Below are positions 1 to 6,328 of a DNA stretch of 46,136 nucleotides, piece after piece. Both the position numbers and the translations under genes were made by a program. The notes under the pieces were generated by a model. That model was not told the origin of the DNA, ran no database searches, and saw nothing but the letters and a program-made list of their open reading frames with translations. Position 1 is the first letter of the stretch, and the number at the start of each line of letters is the position of its first letter. The DNA is from Clostridia bacterium. Its GTDB lineage: Bacteria; Bacillota; Clostridia; Oscillospirales; Acutalibacteraceae. The stretch covers positions 1 through 46,136 of the forward strand of contig JAFWYB010000058.1 in NCBI GenBank assembly GCA_017517865.1, read 5' to 3'.

Positions 1-924
1 AGCAAGAAAATGAAGAAGAAAGGCAAAGTCACAGAGCGGATGAGAATCAACATTCTTATCCGCAAGGATAACAGCCTGATTATCAGCCTTCGCAAAACTG
101 TTCAGGCACTTACAGAGCTTGTTATTACTGCGGCAAAGCTGCTCATACCCGCACTCGCAGATGCTCTTGAAGGTATCCGTGTCAGTATGATTATCCTTGA
201 ATGTGAAAGAAAGAGCATTAACAAAATGAAGCATCAGGCTATGAATGAGGTCCGTGATGCTGATGAGTTTTATGTGTACTTCCATAAGCTACAAGAAGAT
301 ATTAAAGCCACCGAAGAAAAACTCAAAGAGGCAAAGAAGAAGCTGAAGCTTACTCCCAAAGTTATGAAGCAAAAGTACAACTCGGCAAAATGTGAGGTTG
401 GTCACTATGAATTTGAGCTTAAAGAGTTGAAATTTAAAATGCAGAATATTCTCTCACAAAATGAATGCGAAACCGAACAGGATATTGTTAATGCAAAGTC
501 TTACTTTGAGAAAATGCGTAGGTTTGAAATTCCGAAGCTTGAAGACGAGGAAAAGAGGATGGAAGCAGAAATTCAAAAGACACTTGTTCAGTATCAAGAA
601 ACCGAGAAGCAGGCTGATGAAGCAGATGTAGAAGAACTTAAAGCCGAGAGGATGAAAATCCGCCCCGAAAAAGAGAAAGAGGCAAGGCAAAAAGCAGAAG
701 CAGATTACAACATCAGTGAATACGATTTTAACCGAAGCGTTGATACTGTTTCAAAGCTCATAGGTGAGCCGCCACCTAATTATCTTACCAAGGCTGAAAT
801 AGCAAGGCAGGAAGAATATGCCCGCTATGTTAAGCAGCAGGAAGAAAGACAGCGGCAAATCGAAGAACGGTGTAAAACCCGTAATAATCAAAATATTAAC
901 AATAAAAAAGAAAGGAGCCGATAA
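1..924 (+). CDS. Coiled-coil protein of unknown function, mobile-element associated, 5' end uncertain
   Basis: The reading frame is open to the left window edge. The first ATG is at 10, with no convincing ribosome binding site, so the real start may lie upstream. From about base 240 to the end the product is highly charged (Lys/Glu/Gln-rich) with long heptad-like helices, predicting an extended coiled coil; the last 40 residues are Arg/Gln/Asn-rich. The first 60 codons look less protein-like than the rest. In another frame, about bases 99-167 encode a Cys/His cluster (CYYCGKAAH), so a frameshift near the 5' end cannot be excluded. No enzymatic motif was seen. It sits 1 base before the parB-like gene and is probably co-transcribed with it, which suggests a role in mobilization or maintenance of the element. 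Function unknown. Confidence 0.55.
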   Translation, partial: SKKMKKKGKVTERMRINILIRKDNSLIISLRKTVQALTELVITAAKLLIPALADALEGIRVSMIILECERKSINKMKHQAMNEVRDADEFYVYFHKLQEDIKATEEKLKEAKKKLKLTPKVMKQKYNSAKCEVGHYEFELKELKFKMQNILSQNECETEQDIVNAKSYFEKMRRFEIPKLEDEEKRMEAEIQKTLVQYQETEKQADEADVEELKAERMKIRPEKEKEARQKAEADYNISEYDFNRSVDTVSKLIGEPPPNYLTKAEIARQEEYARYVKQQEERQRQIEERCKTRNNQNINNKKERSR

Positions 925-925
925 A

Positions 926-1798
926 ATGGCTAACAAAAAATTAAAAGCACCGGTAAATATCCCGGTAGAAAAAATTCATCCCTTTGAGGGACATCCGTAT
1001 AAGGTGTTAGATAATGATGAAATGAATAATCTCATAGAGAGTATTCAGCAGAAAGGTGTTATATCACCCATTGTCGTAAGACCTTTAGAAAACACAACAG
1101 ATGAATATGAGATAATCTCAGGTCACAGACGACTGAGAGCATCCGTGAAAGCAGGGCTGGAAACAGTACCTGCTTTAATTTATGCCGTAAGCAGAGATGA
1201 AGCGGCTATTATGCTCGTTGACAGTAATCTGCATAGGGAGCATGTTCTGCCAAGTGAGCGAGCATTTGCTTATAAAATGAAACTTGAAGCATTAAATCAT
1301 CAGGGACAAAGAACAGACTTAACTTCGTCGCAAGTTGCGACAAAGTTCGACTCTGCAACTGAAATAGGCAATATTACAGGAGAAAGCCGAGATAAAGTTT
1401 ACAGATATATCCGTCTGACGTATCTCATTCCCGAACTGCTTGAAATGATGGACGAAGATAAAATTGCCTTTTCCGTCGGTGTTGAACTTTCATTCCTCGA
1501 TGACCAAATGCAGTATGATTTGCTCCGTGTAATTGAAGAGCAGGAATGTACTCCGTCATATTCTCAGGCTTGGCATATGCACAAGGATTTTACTGCGGGT
1601 GTGCTTACCGCGGAGAGTATTGAGAATACTCTCACAGCAGAAAAGCCGAATCAGAAAGCTATGTTCAAGACACCTATGGAAAAATTGCAAAAGGTTGCTC
1701 CTAAGGTTAAGGATAAAGACTTTGAAGATTTCGTAATAAAGGCCTGTGAGCATTATTACAGATACCTTCAGCGACAGCGAAATAGGGATGCGAGGTGA
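926..1798 (+). CDS. ParB/Spo0J-like nuclease-domain protein
   Basis: 290 residues. The ATG at 926 is chosen because AAAGGAG lies at 911-917 and the upstream gene ends at 924; upstream in-frame codons are non-homologous spacer. The N-terminal ParB domain (about residues 8-105) carries the nucleotide-binding box around GHRRLRA (residues 66-72) and a VDSNLHRE segment. A central helix-turn-helix-like region follows at about 130-190. ParB proteins bind parS-like DNA and use CTP to form sliding clamps for partition; mobile-element relatives often act in element maintenance or regulation. No ParA partner is visible in the window. The C-terminal 80 residues are lysine-rich and of unknown role. Family assignment is firm; the role on this element is inferred. 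Confidence 0.88.
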   Translation: MANKKLKAPVNIPVEKIHPFEGHPYKVLDNDEMNNLIESIQQKGVISPIVVRPLENTTDEYEIISGHRRLRASVKAGLETVPALIYAVSRDEAAIMLVDSNLHREHVLPSERAFAYKMKLEALNHQGQRTDLTSSQVATKFDSATEIGNITGESRDKVYRYIRLTYLIPELLEMMDEDKIAFSVGVELSFLDDQMQYDLLRVIEEQECTPSYSQAWHMHKDFTAGVLTAESIENTLTAEKPNQKAMFKTPMEKLQKVAPKVKDKDFEDFVIKACEHYYRYLQRQRNRDAR

Positions 1799-1804
1799 TG
1801 TGTA

Positions 1805-2032
1805 TTGAAGTATATTGGAATTCTTAAAGCATATATCCGTTATCTTAATGATGACATCAGAGGAGAATATTCCTTCAAGGTTAAAGGTCACGAGGTAGTT
1901 GCTACCTTTGCAGAAAAACGTAACAATGACATTCTTCCCCGCATTCGTGAAATATTACTGGGTGATTCACACATTCGACAAAGTGATGCCCCTGATATTA
2001 AACTAAAGAAAAATATCAAGGAGGCGGTTTAA
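1805..2032 (+). CDS. Small hypothetical protein (75 aa) of the mobile element
   Basis: The TTG start at 1805 is preceded by GAGGTGATG (1792-1800), which also contains the ParB-like stop. The ATG at 1798 gives only a 9-codon frame. The stop TAA overlaps the recombinase ATG by one base, indicating translational coupling. The product is a compact alpha/beta-type sequence with basic and acidic residues and a lysine-rich C-terminus; there is no signal peptide or membrane segment. I do not recognise the family. Its position between a ParB-like gene and a recombinase suggests an accessory or regulatory role in the element, but the sequence does not show this. Confidence 0.65.
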   Translation: MKYIGILKAYIRYLNDDIRGEYSFKVKGHEVVATFAEKRNNDILPRIREILLGDSHIRQSDAPDIKLKKNIKEAV

Positions 2033-3627
2033 TGTCAAAAAGAGTGTGTTGTCTGTACCGAGTTTCAACAGGTAAACAGGTTGATTATGACAGCAACAAT
2101 GAAGCGGATATCCCGATGCAGAGAAAGGCTTGTCATAAATTTGCAAGTGAAATGGGTTGGGATATTGTTCACGAGGAACAGGAGGACGGTGTTTCAGGTC
2201 ATAAGGTGCGAGCTGAAAACCGTGATAAAATTCAAATCATAAAAGACCTTGCGAGAAAGAAAAAGTTTGATATTCTGCTTGTGTTTATGTTTGACCGTAT
2301 CGGCAGAATCGCAGATGAAACACCGTTTGTTGTTGAATGGTTTGTAAAAAACGGTATTGAGGTTTGGAGTACACAAGAGGGCGAACAAAGATTTGATAAT
2401 CACATTGACAAGCTCTTGAACTATATCCGTTTTTGGCAAGCTGACGGTGAAAGTGAGAAAACATCTGTACGAACAAAAACAAGCCTTGGTCAGTTAGTTG
2501 AATCAGGTCATTTCAAGGGCGGCGTTGCCGCCTTTGGATACGACCTTGTGAAAAACGGCAGATTCAATAAACGAAAACACGAGCTTTACGATTTACAGGT
2601 AAATCCCGATGAGGCGATTGTTGTGAAGATTATCTTTGATAAGTACACTACCGAGGGTTACGGTGCTCACAGAATTACAACGTGGCTGAATAATAACGGT
2701 TACCGAGCAAGAACAGGTAAAATGTGGCACGAGGCAACAATAAGAGGCATTCTGCGTAACCTCACATATACAGGTGTACTTCGCAGCGGTGATGCTCGTT
2801 CCGAGGTTATTCCCGAACTGCAGATAATTCCACCCGAACAATTTGAAAGAGCAATGATGATTATGAAAGAACGTTCAGACAGGAAAAAAGGAAATCCCAC
2901 AGTACCCCTTAACACAAAAGGGAAATCTCTTATCTCCGGTAAGGTTTACTGTGGGCATTGCGGTTCAAGGCTGAATCTTACAACAAGCGGAAGATACCGT
3001 AAAAGAAAAGACGGTTCTGTTGATACAACAAAACGCATCAGATATGCCTGCTACGGCAAAAGCAGGAAGCAGACGGAGTGTGATGGGCAGTCGGGTTACA
3101 CACTTCACATTCTTGATGATTTGATTGATGAAATTGTCCGTGATATTTTCAGGAAGATGAAAGGTGTGTCAAAGAGTGATGTAATCAAGCTCCGTTATGC
3201 TGATGAGCTTGAAGTGAGAAAAGCAAGGCTCAATATGGTGAAAGCTGATTACAGTAAAGAATTTGAAAATCTTACTATTCTGAAAGCAGAGGTTATCAAA
3301 GCAATCAAGGGCGAAAGCTCATTTTCGGCTGATACTCTTTCGGAGCTGATTGTGGAATCTGAAAAGGAGTGCAGCAGACTTTTTGATTTATGTACTGATG
3401 CTGAAAAAGATGTTGCCGACGGTGAAAGTGTTCTCAAAAACTTATCCGACAGCTTTGATGAACTGATTTCTTGGGCAGAGCTTTATGATGAAGCAAGCTT
3501 TGAAAAGAAGAAAATGATTGTGAACTGCCTGATTAAACGGGTTGAGGTAAGCAGAGGGTACAAGTTGAAAGTTGAGTTTAACATTGACTTTGAGCAGTTT
3601 ATGGTGGGTATTGATAAGGTGGCGTAA
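2032..3627 (+). CDS. Large serine recombinase (resolvase/invertase family)
   Basis: 531 residues with an AAGGAGG ribosome binding site at 2018-2024. The N-terminal resolvase domain (residues 4-150) has the catalytic serine in YRVSTGKQ (Ser12) and the DRIGR segment of the arginine-containing active site. The Recombinase domain follows (about 165-290). A zinc-ribbon (about 305-350) has the pair CGHC and later cysteines in ACYGKSRKQTEC. A coiled coil (about 380-470) resembles those that control integration direction. Such enzymes cut and rejoin att sites through a phosphoserine linkage and usually lie next to an element end. Length and domains are complete, so the protein is probably active. Target site not identified. 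Confidence 0.95.
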   Translation: MSKRVCCLYRVSTGKQVDYDSNNEADIPMQRKACHKFASEMGWDIVHEEQEDGVSGHKVRAENRDKIQIIKDLARKKKFDILLVFMFDRIGRIADETPFVVEWFVKNGIEVWSTQEGEQRFDNHIDKLLNYIRFWQADGESEKTSVRTKTSLGQLVESGHFKGGVAAFGYDLVKNGRFNKRKHELYDLQVNPDEAIVVKIIFDKYTTEGYGAHRITTWLNNNGYRARTGKMWHEATIRGILRNLTYTGVLRSGDARSEVIPELQIIPPEQFERAMMIMKERSDRKKGNPTVPLNTKGKSLISGKVYCGHCGSRLNLTTSGRYRKRKDGSVDTTKRIRYACYGKSRKQTECDGQSGYTLHILDDLIDEIVRDIFRKMKGVSKSDVIKLRYADELEVRKARLNMVKADYSKEFENLTILKAEVIKAIKGESSFSADTLSELIVESEKECSRLFDLCTDAEKDVADGESVLKNLSDSFDELISWAELYDEASFEKKKMIVNCLIKRVEVSRGYKLKVEFNIDFEQFMVGIDKVA

Positions 3628-3635
3628 AAAGTAAA

Positions 3636-3670
3636 GGCAGAGAGCTAAAAACTCTCTGCCAATTTTTTAT
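3636..3670 (+). terminator. Bidirectional intrinsic terminator between recombinase and sigma-like gene
   Basis: Nine-base-pair stem GGCAGAGAG (3636-3644) with CTCTCTGCC (3652-3660), a 7-base loop, then AATTTTTTATTTT on the plus strand. On the minus strand the stem is followed by the weaker TTTAC. It ends the recombinase transcript and probably also the convergent sigma-like gene. Confidence 0.85.
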
Positions 3671-5193
3671 TTTAGGACTATATATGTTGTAGGTAAAATA
3701 CTATTGCCGTTATATGGAAACAAAACCTTATTTTCTGCAAGAGTACCAACAGGCACAGAAATTGCATCCTCAAAAATTCTGAAGTATGCCATCTGATATG
3801 CCTGTGATTTCAAATGAACAGGTATATAATTCTTAATTATCTTTGTTGCCTCATTCATTATTACATTAGCATTTTGCTCAACAATTTCAACTTCAGAATT
3901 GAACTGACTCATAAATTGTTCGAATTCCTCTTTTGTGAACACAGGAACATTGACCATGAGCTTACCATTTTCATTTAATACATAACCTTTTTTAACAAGT
4001 TCAGCAACGACAATCTTTTCAAATTCATTATCAAAATCTTTTTTGCCTTTTGCGATATCGAGAAATACATTTGTCAAACTTTTTGAGGAGTAAAAGCTGT
4101 GATGCACCATATCACCATTAACGCTAAAATCAAAAAACTGCACTCTGTCACCGTTTTCGTTTTCTGTATTTGATACACCAAATTCAAAACCTTTGTTTCT
4201 CATTGAATCTACTGATTTTTCAACCGCCCAAACAATACAGTTTTCACCAAATTTGTTTTCGGGAAGTTCTATATTGACTTTTGACTGTAAGTTTTCAAAA
4301 ATTGCTTTGTAAAGGATACAACATACAGTAAGCCATGCTTCAGAATTTGAGAGATTTCTGTTGGTTATAATTTCAGAAAGCGTATCTGAAATATTGTTTC
4401 TGAATACCCGTGTCTTGTTAGCAACCTCAACAGCACATTCTGCAGTAAAAATTACAATGTTGGTGTAATATTTTCTACCATCAAGTCCGAGTGCCTCACA
4501 CTCTACCAACTGTTTGAGATTGTCCTCAATATACGGCAATGCAATACCTAACTCAAGACTTATTTCCTCTGCTGTCAGTTTGTCATTGTAGCACGCAAAA
4601 AGAATATTCTGACTGATTTTGTTTTCATAAACAGTGTTATAGGTGTTTTTTCCGTTGCCCCAATAAAGAATTGATAATTCTTTCGGATTATAACTCTGTT
4701 GACCATAATTTCGTTCCATACTCATACCTTCTTTCAAGATTTGTCTTGATTTGAAAAGCAGGTATTTAACCATGCTTTCACTGATTGAGAGGTGCTTGGA
4801 TATTTCCGAACAAGATTTGTTTTCAATGTAATACAAAATAACAGCTTTTCGGTGCTTTTCAGAGAGCAATGTCAACTCACGACGCAATAGATATAATTCT
4901 GAATTATCATCGTCAAAAGTTTCTGCTACATCAATCAGATTATCGGTTAATTCGCACTCTTTATTCTTTGTTTTTTTCTTGCACCATTGTTTATACACAT
5001 TACCTGCAATCGCCCACATAAATCCATAAAAAGCGTTTGCGTTGCGGATGTTATCAGCAGATTTATAAATCTCTAATATAATATCCTGTGCTAAATCTTC
5101 TGCCTCAAAATGGTTTGAAGTTCGAGCAATACAATATGATAATATAGTCTTTGCTATGTCTGTTATTTTTGTATCAAGTTCGTGTTTATCCAT
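3667..5193 (-). CDS. Sigma-70 family (ECF-like) protein with long C-terminal extension
   Basis: 508 residues from the ATG at 5191-5193, which has AAAGGAGGTG immediately upstream; an in-frame ATG 19 codons earlier has no such site. Residues 15-75 match sigma region 2 (EAEDLAQDIILEIYKS) and residues 105-158 match region 4 (SEKHRKAVILYYIENKS and a helix-turn-helix). ECF sigma factors are normally 160-200 residues. Here about 340 extra residues follow: a probable winged-helix part (about 185-260) with KLTAEEISLELGI, then a mixed alpha/beta region. No membrane segment or anti-sigma gene is adjacent. A TATAAT-like -10 lies at 5300-5305 without a good -35. A perfect palindrome TCACCGGTGA (5219-5228) sits in the leader. 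It may regulate the neighbouring mobile element or an unknown stress response; this is inference. Confidence 0.8.
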   Translation of the reverse strand: MDKHELDTKITDIAKTILSYCIARTSNHFEAEDLAQDIILEIYKSADNIRNANAFYGFMWAIAGNVYKQWCKKKTKNKECELTDNLIDVAETFDDDNSELYLLRRELTLLSEKHRKAVILYYIENKSCSEISKHLSISESMVKYLLFKSRQILKEGMSMERNYGQQSYNPKELSILYWGNGKNTYNTVYENKISQNILFACYNDKLTAEEISLELGIALPYIEDNLKQLVECEALGLDGRKYYTNIVIFTAECAVEVANKTRVFRNNISDTLSEIITNRNLSNSEAWLTVCCILYKAIFENLQSKVNIELPENKFGENCIVWAVEKSVDSMRNKGFEFGVSNTENENGDRVQFFDFSVNGDMVHHSFYSSKSLTNVFLDIAKGKKDFDNEFEKIVVAELVKKGYVLNENGKLMVNVPVFTKEEFEQFMSQFNSEVEIVEQNANVIMNEATKIIKNYIPVHLKSQAYQMAYFRIFEDAISVPVGTLAENKVLFPYNGNSILPTTYIVLK

Positions 5194-5218
5194 TTTTACA
5201 CCTCCTTTGATTTTTGAT

Positions 5219-5228
5219 TCACCGGTGA
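5219..5228. promoter_or_regulatory. Palindrome in the leader of the sigma-like gene, possible operator
   Basis: TCACCGGTGA is a perfect 10-bp palindrome 26 bases upstream of the start codon of the sigma-like gene, between its probable -10 (5300-5305) and its ribosome binding site. The position fits an autoregulatory operator, but there is no second copy nearby, and a 10-bp palindrome can occur by chance. Confidence 0.25.
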
Positions 5229-5369
5229 TTTCACTTGTATAGTGGAACATAATTGCTTTTGGTTAAAGTTTGGTTGAAAAAATTTTTAAATCTTAAAAAA
5301 TTATATCATAAATGTTGAAAGAATAAAATAATTGTTATTGCCCACTGCGAAGGAACATATGTGATGGCA

Positions 5370-5399
5370 TAAAAAATAGCCACTCTCCAAAGAAAGTGG
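5370..5399 (-). terminator. Intrinsic terminator of the tRNA-Ala transcript
   Basis: On the minus strand CCACTTTC (5399-5392), loop TTTG and GAGAGTGG (5387-5380) form an 8-bp stem with one G-U pair, followed by CTATTTTTTATGCC. It lies about 28 bases after the tRNA CCA end. Confidence 0.75.
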
Positions 5400-5426
5400 A
5401 CAAAAAAATAATTACTCAGTATGCTG

Positions 5427-5502
<76 letters not shown>

Positions 5503-5544
5503 ATAAAAGGGCACACTGAGTAATTTATTTATTAAGTTTTCTGT

Positions 5545-5591
5545 GGGGTGCGTTTCTGAGTGCTTCTCGCTCCCAGCTGAGCTACGCCCCC
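5545..5591 (-). ncRNA. tRNA-like 47-mer, copy A (truncated tRNA-Ala, possible small RNA or pseudogene)
   Basis: On the minus strand the first 22 bases equal the 5' end of the adjacent tRNA-Ala. A 2-base deletion in the D-loop and loss of the anticodon, variable and T arms follow. The remainder can refold: GGGG+GCGT pairs with ACGC+CCCC (8 bp, one bulged A), D-stem GCTC/GAGC, and a small hairpin GAG-AAGCA-CTC. The 3' sequence after the acceptor stem is ACAG, so an encoded CCA is missing here. It lies inside the transcript of the tRNA promoter. RNA function is inferred; it may be only a pseudogene. Confidence 0.5.
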
Positions 5592-5629
5592 ATAAAAGGG
5601 CACACTGAGTAATTTATTTATTAAGTTTT

Positions 5630-5680
5630 TGGTGGGGTGCGTTTCTGAGTGTTTCTCGCTCCCAGCTGAGCTACGCCCCC
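5630..5680 (-). ncRNA. tRNA-like 47-mer, copy B, with ACCA end
   Basis: The same fold as copy A (acceptor-like 8-bp stem with a bulged A, D-arm GCTC/GAGC, hairpin GAG-AAACA-CTC). It differs from copy A only at one loop base. Directly after the CCCC of the acceptor strand come A and CCA (complement of 5630-5633), exactly where a tRNA discriminator base and CCA would be. It is the promoter-proximal unit. Whether it is processed by RNase P or aminoacylated is unknown; the G3-U70 identity pair becomes G-C here. Confidence 0.5.
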
Positions 5681-5746
5681 ATATCTGAAGTAATAAGTAA
5701 TAGTGAATAGAGAAAAAGTAAATTTATAATCTCTTATTACTCGGAT

Positions 5747-5776
5747 ATATTACCACAAAAGAATAAGGTTTGTCAA
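5747..5776 (-). promoter_or_regulatory. Sigma-A promoter for the tRNA-like units and tRNA-Ala
   Basis: On the minus strand: -35 TTGACA (5776-5771), 18-bp spacer, -10 TAATAT (5752-5747). No other good promoter lies between it and the tRNA, so the primary transcript would contain both tRNA-like units followed by the tRNA. Confidence 0.8.
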
Positions 5777-5809
5777 TATATTTTCCGCTTTTTTATATGC
5801 GGCGCACAG

Positions 5810-6328
5810 CTATTGCTGTCGCGCCGCCTTGTCTGCTTTTTTCAGCAGCAATGTCACAGGTACAATAAGTATGCCGCATAATAAATTGCTTACTCCGTGT
5901 ATCAGGTCAAAGGGTATACCTGCAATTATCCAGGTTACCATACCGTCAAAACCAAGTCCGAACATAAGCGCCTGGGCAGGTGCATATAAAGCACCGTAGG
6001 CGAAGCCGTGTACACCGCAGATAAGCATATAGACTATGGGAGCAACCTTTTTAGGCATAGACTTCGGTAGAAGCATCGTTATCCCCCACAGTATAGTCCA
6101 TATGTAAAGATAAGGTACCCACCACAGATTGAAGCCACCAAAAAGCCCTGTAAGAAAAACAAATATATATATAGGATATAATGCCTTTTTACGGTACACA
6201 AGAGTGAAGGCAATCGTAAGCACGCCTATAAGATGTATATTCGGAAGCATTTCCATTATCAGCTTAGAGCCGTACATAAGCGTACCAAGCATACTGAATA
6301 TTGCAGTTTCTTTAACTGATATCTTCAT
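5810..6328 (-). CDS. ECF transporter S component, probably for a cobalamin-type substrate
   Basis: 172 residues, nearly all hydrophobic with about five to six membrane helices and a short basic C-terminus, the size and pattern of energy-coupling-factor S components (substrate-capturing membrane proteins that share an EcfA-EcfA'-EcfT motor). The ATG overlaps the stop of the upstream lipoprotein gene by one base (TAATG), so the two are translationally coupled. The pair lies downstream of a cobalamin riboswitch with its own promoter, which points to vitamin B12 or a related corrinoid as substrate. No EcfA or EcfT gene is nearby, as usual for group II systems. Family call is firm; substrate is inferred from the riboswitch and the DUF4430 partner. 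Confidence 0.85.
   Translation of the reverse strand: MKISVKETAIFSMLGTLMYGSKLIMEMLPNIHLIGVLTIAFTLVYRKKALYPIYIFVFLTGLFGGFNLWWVPYLYIWTILWGITMLLPKSMPKKVAPIVYMLICGVHGFAYGALYAPAQALMFGLGFDGMVTWIIAGIPFDLIHGVSNLLCGILIVPVTLLLKKADKAARQQ

Follow-up and report, generated by a model that had tools for sequence, protein, structure and literature searches.

We are highly confident that the two tandem repeats in front of a tRNA-Ala gene of this Clostridia bacterium are attL junctions of islands moved by a large serine recombinase (LSR), which would split tRNA-Ala genes in the D-arm and leave a promoterless spare tRNA to be driven by a captured promoter. In the proposed mechanism, the island LSR would cut a tRNA-Ala gene in the D-arm at the core GGG-AG-AGCGC. 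Each repeat unit would then consist of the 5' 22 nt of the target tRNA (the attB half, T5), a palindromic attP half (Y) and a linker (L), and the island would carry an intact, promoterless replacement tRNA-Ala just inside Y. After integration, the target gene's own promoter would drive the replacement tRNA, and the 3' half of the target tRNA would move to the far end of the island, beside the attP half X. Because the replacement tRNA has the same D-arm, it is itself a potential target, and a later island inserting there would add a further T5-Y-L unit between the promoter and the working tRNA. Sequence comparison allowed us to show how the junctions are built, that the host tRNA is split, that the island ends do not depend on the host, that the islands are tied to the LSR, that the units lack a promoter-like site, and that L covaries with a trailer segment, L', in a helix around the replacement tRNA.

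The window, by which we mean the whole 46,136-nt stretch analyzed, contains an intact tRNA-Ala(GGC) gene on the minus strand at 5427-5502, which we read as a probable island-borne spare. Its D-arm is itself attB, with the core AG at 5481-5482. Two 89-nt units precede it on the same strand, at 5503-5591 and 5592-5680, and we interpret both as attL-type junctions. The tRNA-proximal unit contains tRNA nucleotides 1-22 at 5570-5591, Y at 5545-5569 and L at 5503-5544; in the promoter-proximal unit the same parts lie at 5659-5680, 5634-5658 and 5592-5633. A 25-nt word spanning the unit start occurs three times at spacings of 89 and 89, and the two units differ at 3 of 89 positions (97% identity). 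A single sigma70-like site with 10/12 matches was found within 5000-6300, on the minus strand at 5747-5776 (TTGACA, 18 nt, and the TATAAT-like TAATAT), upstream of both units. The repeat period and the promoter search confirm the first-pass annotation, which had placed two 89-bp units between the tRNA-Ala gene and its only good promoter, and the copies of the first 22 nt of the tRNA that it described proved exact in both units.

Around the tRNA, an L arm at 5511-5525 and an L' arm at 5410-5424, both on the minus strand, can form a leader-trailer helix of 15 bp with one G-U pair. The L' arm is followed by a T-run, and a terminator-like hairpin lies downstream of the tRNA at 5380-5399 (minus strand). 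Between the spare tRNA and the recombinase is a cargo gene (3667-5250, minus strand). Its product, 527 aa long, has ECF sigma domains within the first ~180 residues, followed by a long C-terminal region without a known family. The large serine recombinase gene (2032-3627, plus strand; 531 aa) is convergent with the tRNA and is the proposed integrase of the family. It is preceded by a ParB-like island gene (818-1798, plus strand) and, at the contig end, by an island ORF without a family match (10-924, plus strand). The island runs past the end of the contig.

A search of 34 genus genomes for the unit gave matches in 18, some of which were merely the tRNA's own 22 nt. By reading the matches, we recognized units made of a tRNA start plus Y in 10 of the 34 (G000, G005, G008, G010, G011, G012, G013, G015, G030 and G032). 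In G001, an inverted Y motif is joined to the 3' part of a tRNA-Ala and adjoins the end of a serine recombinase gene. This mirror image, together with the recombinase with full LSR domains in the window, suggested that the two arrangements are attL and attR halves. On a tRNA-Ala(CGC) branch (L166:11071-11378, L168 and L170), the second half of the unit holds a further D-arm-like word, GTAACTCACTTGGCAG.

Island ends that are shared between hosts carry most of the argument. One Y-L stretch, identical up to the tRNA, stands behind six different 22-nt tRNA starts in seven hosts (L209-L215); the DNA upstream is unrelated, the promoters differ between hosts, and identity begins at the core TGGGAG. 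The far ends of this element in three of the seven hosts (L263, L264 and L265) have an identical X end, which continues at GGGAG into three different tRNA 3' halves. The spare tRNA and the orphan half are 24.5, 24.5 and 39.7 kb apart in these hosts. Six comparisons of X and Y, each read outward from the core, gave agreement at 17-21 of 25 positions, and 0 to 5 of 20,000 shuffles did as well. Such a palindromic match is expected of an LSR attP. The attP site consists of two inverted half-sites and has only the GGGAG core in common with attB, with the core placed by us. The attP arms of LSRs are longer than the attB arms, a rule that fits only roughly here. Viral contigs contained neither an intact X-Y attP pattern nor an exact match to the unit core; they contained one recombinase relative (L155, 65% identical), alongside a decayed tRNA 3' half.

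The 3' halves displaced by integration could be traced as orphans. A search with the tRNA 3' half plus trailer in the genome to which the window belongs returned one orphan, at 98%, on contig C67, with an X half-site and the last recombinase codons directly before it; it is the putative partner of the window's units. Orphan 3' halves are present in several genus genomes, and G001 has two, both with the same X/recombinase-end junction and with a different gene between. Within each genome, the host 5' half joined to the orphan 3' half gave a complete tRNA-Ala(GGC) with 7 acceptor pairs in 7/7 genomes (ARAGORN), including the window's own with the C67 orphan, although this acceptor test is weak because wobble lets many mismatched half pairs reach 6-7 of 7. 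Anaeromassilibacillus is the only genome with clearly exclusive halves (7 vs 4), and its orphan lies on another contig, next to an X end of another type. Both host tRNA halves remain separated by the island, and the junction does not restore the target tRNA.

For two genomes with the recombinase and no unit, G002 and G006, we had first considered a canonical restoring island, in which the host 5' half is completed by an island 3' half. We rejected this as a general rule because attL units are present in sister genomes and the unit has been lost at L216, although G002 and G006 themselves may be of the canonical type. L216 has the same trailer as L209-L215 and has neither unit nor L, a pattern as after deletion of the unit between the 22-nt direct repeats.

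Several loci retain traces of further elements. In G001, two successive cassettes (L036:5489-8259, on contig C26) share the recombinase-end/X junction and carry different genes, for 168 and 510 aa, which suggests that such cassettes are non-autonomous, have exchanged their cargo and perhaps move in trans. Short recombinase 3'-end remnants of about 11-100 codons, with the 5' part missing, were seen at L036, L047, L112, L115, L117, L122, L123 and L126. They often directly follow a cargo gene plus terminator and are a marker of old islands. ORFs that run antisense through tRNA-Ala (L036:7209-7433 and L127:4178-7195) encode GDEGDRTPYLLNAIQALS-like peptides and probably give rise to spurious protein annotations. 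G003 has a 203-aa ORF (L114:9373-9984) whose start, judged by eye, resembles a small serine resolvase; it lies among the genes that separate the working tRNA from an orphan 3' half.

The recombinase is tied to tRNA-Ala well beyond the genus. The 531-aa protein of the window has Resolvase, Recombinase and zinc-ribbon (Zn_ribbon_recom) domains, all above gathering scores, and the serine at position 12 falls in an invariant column of an alignment of 18 relatives. Scanning genome contigs with this 18-sequence alignment revealed at least 575 relatives in Clostridia, of which we examined the best 80; these came from Clostridia including Faecalibacterium, Neglectibacter, Angelakisella and Agathobaculum, and from many MAGs. 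Of the best 80 loci, 72 have flanks of 700 nt or more beyond the recombinase gene. The nearest tRNA behind the gene was an opposite-strand tRNA-Ala in 65 of these 72 (57 GGC, 8 CGC), at a median distance of 91 nt, and the other seven had no tRNA within the DNA examined. The eight loci with shorter flanks were set aside, although one of them (L207) has the tRNA. Distant serine recombinases, taken as a control and having shorter flanks, had a tRNA at 0/15 loci. We infer that the family LSR catalyses island integration. At one locus (L109:3388-8818, G030, contig C50), Type I-C CRISPR-Cas genes (cas3, cas5c, cas8c and cas7) form the cargo that separates the spare tRNA-Ala from the recombinase.

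For promoters and unit numbers we used a set of 91 loci, in which genus and family loci were added to the 80; it reduces to 82 non-identical loci, 72 of them with a unit. As the added loci were picked for their units or recombinases, these 72 are a non-random sample. At four loci (L038, L039, L156 and L170) the allele of the working tRNA differs from the half-copy ahead of it, which indicates that the working tRNA arrived with the island. Sigma70-like sites with 10/12 matches occur upstream of the first half-copy at 54 of the 72 loci with a unit (shuffled mean 3.3) and between the first half-copy and the tRNA at only one (shuffled mean 0.5). As promoter-like sites lie ahead of the units and scarcely inside them, the spare tRNA appears to lack a promoter of its own and to be expressed from the captured promoter of the target.

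The linker of the unit pairs with the trailer behind the tRNA. Uninterrupted L:L' helices are 9-20 bp long and take 30 distinct forms among 77 distinct flank pairs, with all four Watson-Crick pairs at most of the inner nine positions. The duplex energy beat at least 99 of 100 shuffles at 38 of the 77 loci, namely at 37/67 with units vs 1/10 without. Controls within the examined loci gave such a helix at 1/12 non-Ala tRNAs and at 0/14 other tRNA-Ala genes, two of which (L135 and L138) adjoin a recombinase of the family. Cross pairs between loci reached 9 bp in 147 of 2000 cases, partly owing to related islands. The suggestion that the units act as a leader affecting tRNA maturation survives in an altered form: the leader-trailer helix of the linker covaries, but the tRNA-like part is not the covarying element.

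Folding predictions give this helix a possible function. Over the 32 loci with a helix of at least 10 bp, the predicted mean pairing of the acceptor with its own strand was 0.42 for the native sequence, 0.07 with the arms scrambled and 0.49 when the helix was re-made with other letters. Scrambling only the L' arm lowered the mean to 0.03, and the native value was higher in 22 of the 32 loci and lower in none, with little or no predicted effect of the helix at about ten. These models suggest that L:L' may act as a clamp, so that the two halves of the replacement tRNA pair with each other and not with the half-copies ahead of them. The window is a clear exception to this prediction, since equilibrium folding of its two-unit transcript pairs the tRNA 3' end with the wrong half-copy (0.86) rather than the right one (0.03); with one unit only, the predicted pairing of the right acceptor is 0.93.

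A serious alternative, to which we give a little less than an even chance, is that the helix is only a terminator or a DNA inverted repeat for recombination and has no role in tRNA folding. An inverted repeat in DNA would look covarying too, and a T-run follows the L' arm at 18 of the 32 loci with a helix of at least 10 bp, where the helix likely serves as a terminator as well. However, the remaining 14 loci have no T-run, the arms directly flank the tRNA and include a few G-U pairs, and the loss of right acceptor pairing on scrambling and its return in the re-made helix are, as predictions, what a folding clamp would give.

It had also been proposed that the units are functional minigenes, giving 47-51-nt tRNA-like RNAs that act as decoys for RNase P, the CCA enzyme or AlaRS. 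We consider this very unlikely, although a stable hairpin is predicted for the unit and the ten genus genomes with units count in its favor. The acceptor-like stem of the original description is supported by a helix predicted when 52 nt of the tRNA-proximal unit are folded (-20.7 kcal/mol, z -2.85, 2/200 shuffles as good). The D-arm described with it is missing from that single-unit fold; a D-arm-like hairpin appeared for the promoter-proximal unit only, within a 361-nt fold. The stem is accounted for by the attL reading because two recombinase half-sites have inverted symmetry. Moreover, the far end of the islands has Y again in inverted form, as X, joined to the other half of the tRNA, where a tRNA-like fold is impossible. 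The A-CCA end is real in the promoter-proximal unit (5592-5680), but the other unit reads ACAG, and of 85 distinct units only 3 have NCCA after CCC, which in one of the three is out of register. With one and the same Y following six T5 alleles, the folds predicted range from -14.3 to -24.3 kcal/mol. A search of 5200-6100 against Rfam at E<=1 matched the intact tRNA and nothing in the units.

In favor of an RNA function, T5 and Y in their natural combinations have folds 0.5-0.8 kcal/mol lower than after swapping, with 0/40, 0/60 and 3/200 swaps as low. On compensatory change in the proposed acceptor and D stems, this slight excess speaks for and the constant Y behind six T5 alleles against. The excess does not show RNA function, because one recombinase must bind both halves and because relatives were counted; it could stem from the recombinase recognizing both halves, from common descent or from selection on the RNA. 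Half-site symmetry, inverted recurrence and the six tRNA starts explain the features of the units, so that decoy RNAs are not needed. Of the options raised in the first-pass annotation, it is the third, scars of repeated insertion at the tRNA, that was borne out, in the form of attL halves of serine-recombinase islands. The case illustrates that tRNA-like repeats may pass for new RNA genes.

Arrays of units bear on how the copies arose. Among the 82 non-identical loci, allowing three mismatches and inspecting 320 nt, we counted one unit in 55, two in 13, three in 4 and none in 10. At L037, L040, L156 and L170, the units of an array are unlike in Y, L or tRNA start, which means that they arose by separate insertions. 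Near-identical units, found within arrays at L166, L168, L240 and in the window, may be duplications; the two units of the window would represent either two insertions or one insertion followed by tandem duplication. That all units derive instead from a partial tRNA copied once by slippage or template switching, with later tandem amplification and decay, we regard as extremely improbable: the 97% identity in the window and the near-identical arrays fit it, and gain or loss of copies by slippage likely adds to the pattern, but duplication leaves unexplained why different hosts share an island, why matching orphan 3' halves lie kilobases off and why Y, L or T5 can differ within arrays. We also considered the unit count as an exact counter of insertions and rejected it, as units and orphans are not one to one. 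The window's own genome has 2 units and 1 orphan found, Neglectibacter 1 unit and 2 orphans, G001 no units and 2 orphans, and G013 1 unit and at least 3 orphans.

Stacked attL junctions left by LSR islands could form part of a broader picture, to which we assign an even chance. A widespread class of islands in gut Clostridia would license themselves by cutting tRNA-Ala and capturing its promoter for a spare that is expressed only once integrated; the covarying clamp would shield the spare from the half-tRNA copies left ahead of it by each insertion, the islands would stack since the spare is a target in turn, and the half-copies would record insertions. The promoterless spare and its putative clamp raise the question of how a cell produces a tRNA whose gene lies behind tandem copies of its own 5' half. 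The precise att sites are testable at once and may serve as integration tools for gut commensals, e.g., Faecalibacterium.

Serine-recombinase islands with a spare tRNA-Ala are apparently a large group that has so far gone undescribed. A literature search covering mainly openly accessible journals found no description of serine-recombinase islands with a replacement tRNA-Ala, and the accessible parts of PMC10083194, PMC12884075, PMC4701971 and PMC5883640 describe no such system. In the sections available to us, serine recombinases at tRNA genes are called rare (PMC3218068) or serine integrases are said not to be known to target them (PMC4383910), whereas here one subfamily with at least 575 relatives is tied to tRNA-Ala.

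Known systems share individual features with these islands. Islander-type islands are marked at their ends by a tRNA gene and a displaced tRNA fragment, and tandem arrays occur; as far as the accessible text of PMC4383910 goes, they restore the tRNA via the attP fragment and use tyrosine integrases, whereas the host halves stay apart here. The rare serine recombinases that enter tRNA genes, as ours would, are those of AICEs in mycobacterial tRNA-Leu and of phage phiRSM1 in tRNA-Ser; phiRSM1 uses the tRNA 3' end, and the accessible part of that paper describes no replacement tRNA for either (PMC3218068). Dehalococcoides ssrA islands likewise combine a serine recombinase (the CcrB-like DsiB) at an essential tRNA-like gene with stacking in tandem. 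They differ in that their target is the 3' part of the tmRNA, with a 20-bp direct repeat and, in the sections available, no spare target copy (PMC3146451). The L:L' helix has a parallel in the long, covarying pre-rRNA leader-trailer helix needed for rRNA biogenesis in E. coli; both join leader and trailer around a structured RNA, but that helix encloses rRNA rather than an island tRNA, according to the part of PMC10250234 available to us.

The closest parallel is the tRNA-dependent lysogeny of actinobacteriophages (Guerrero-Bustamante and Hatfull 2024, PMC10865867; accessible sections). There, integration breaks a host tRNA that is not restored, and an intact tRNA of the same isotype comes with the element, both of which are features of our islands. 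The phages integrate by tyrosine recombinases, and a promoter of its own precedes the phage tRNA, as shown for Fionnbharth; the authors speculate that a second plasmid may use the element's tRNA as attB. The Clostridia islands would work in the same way, except that their integrase is a serine recombinase, the promoter is captured and the islands stack. They differ from the phage system in the serine recombinase, the cut in the D-arm, the promoterless spare beside the attP half, the leader-trailer helix and the arrays of 5' half-copies.
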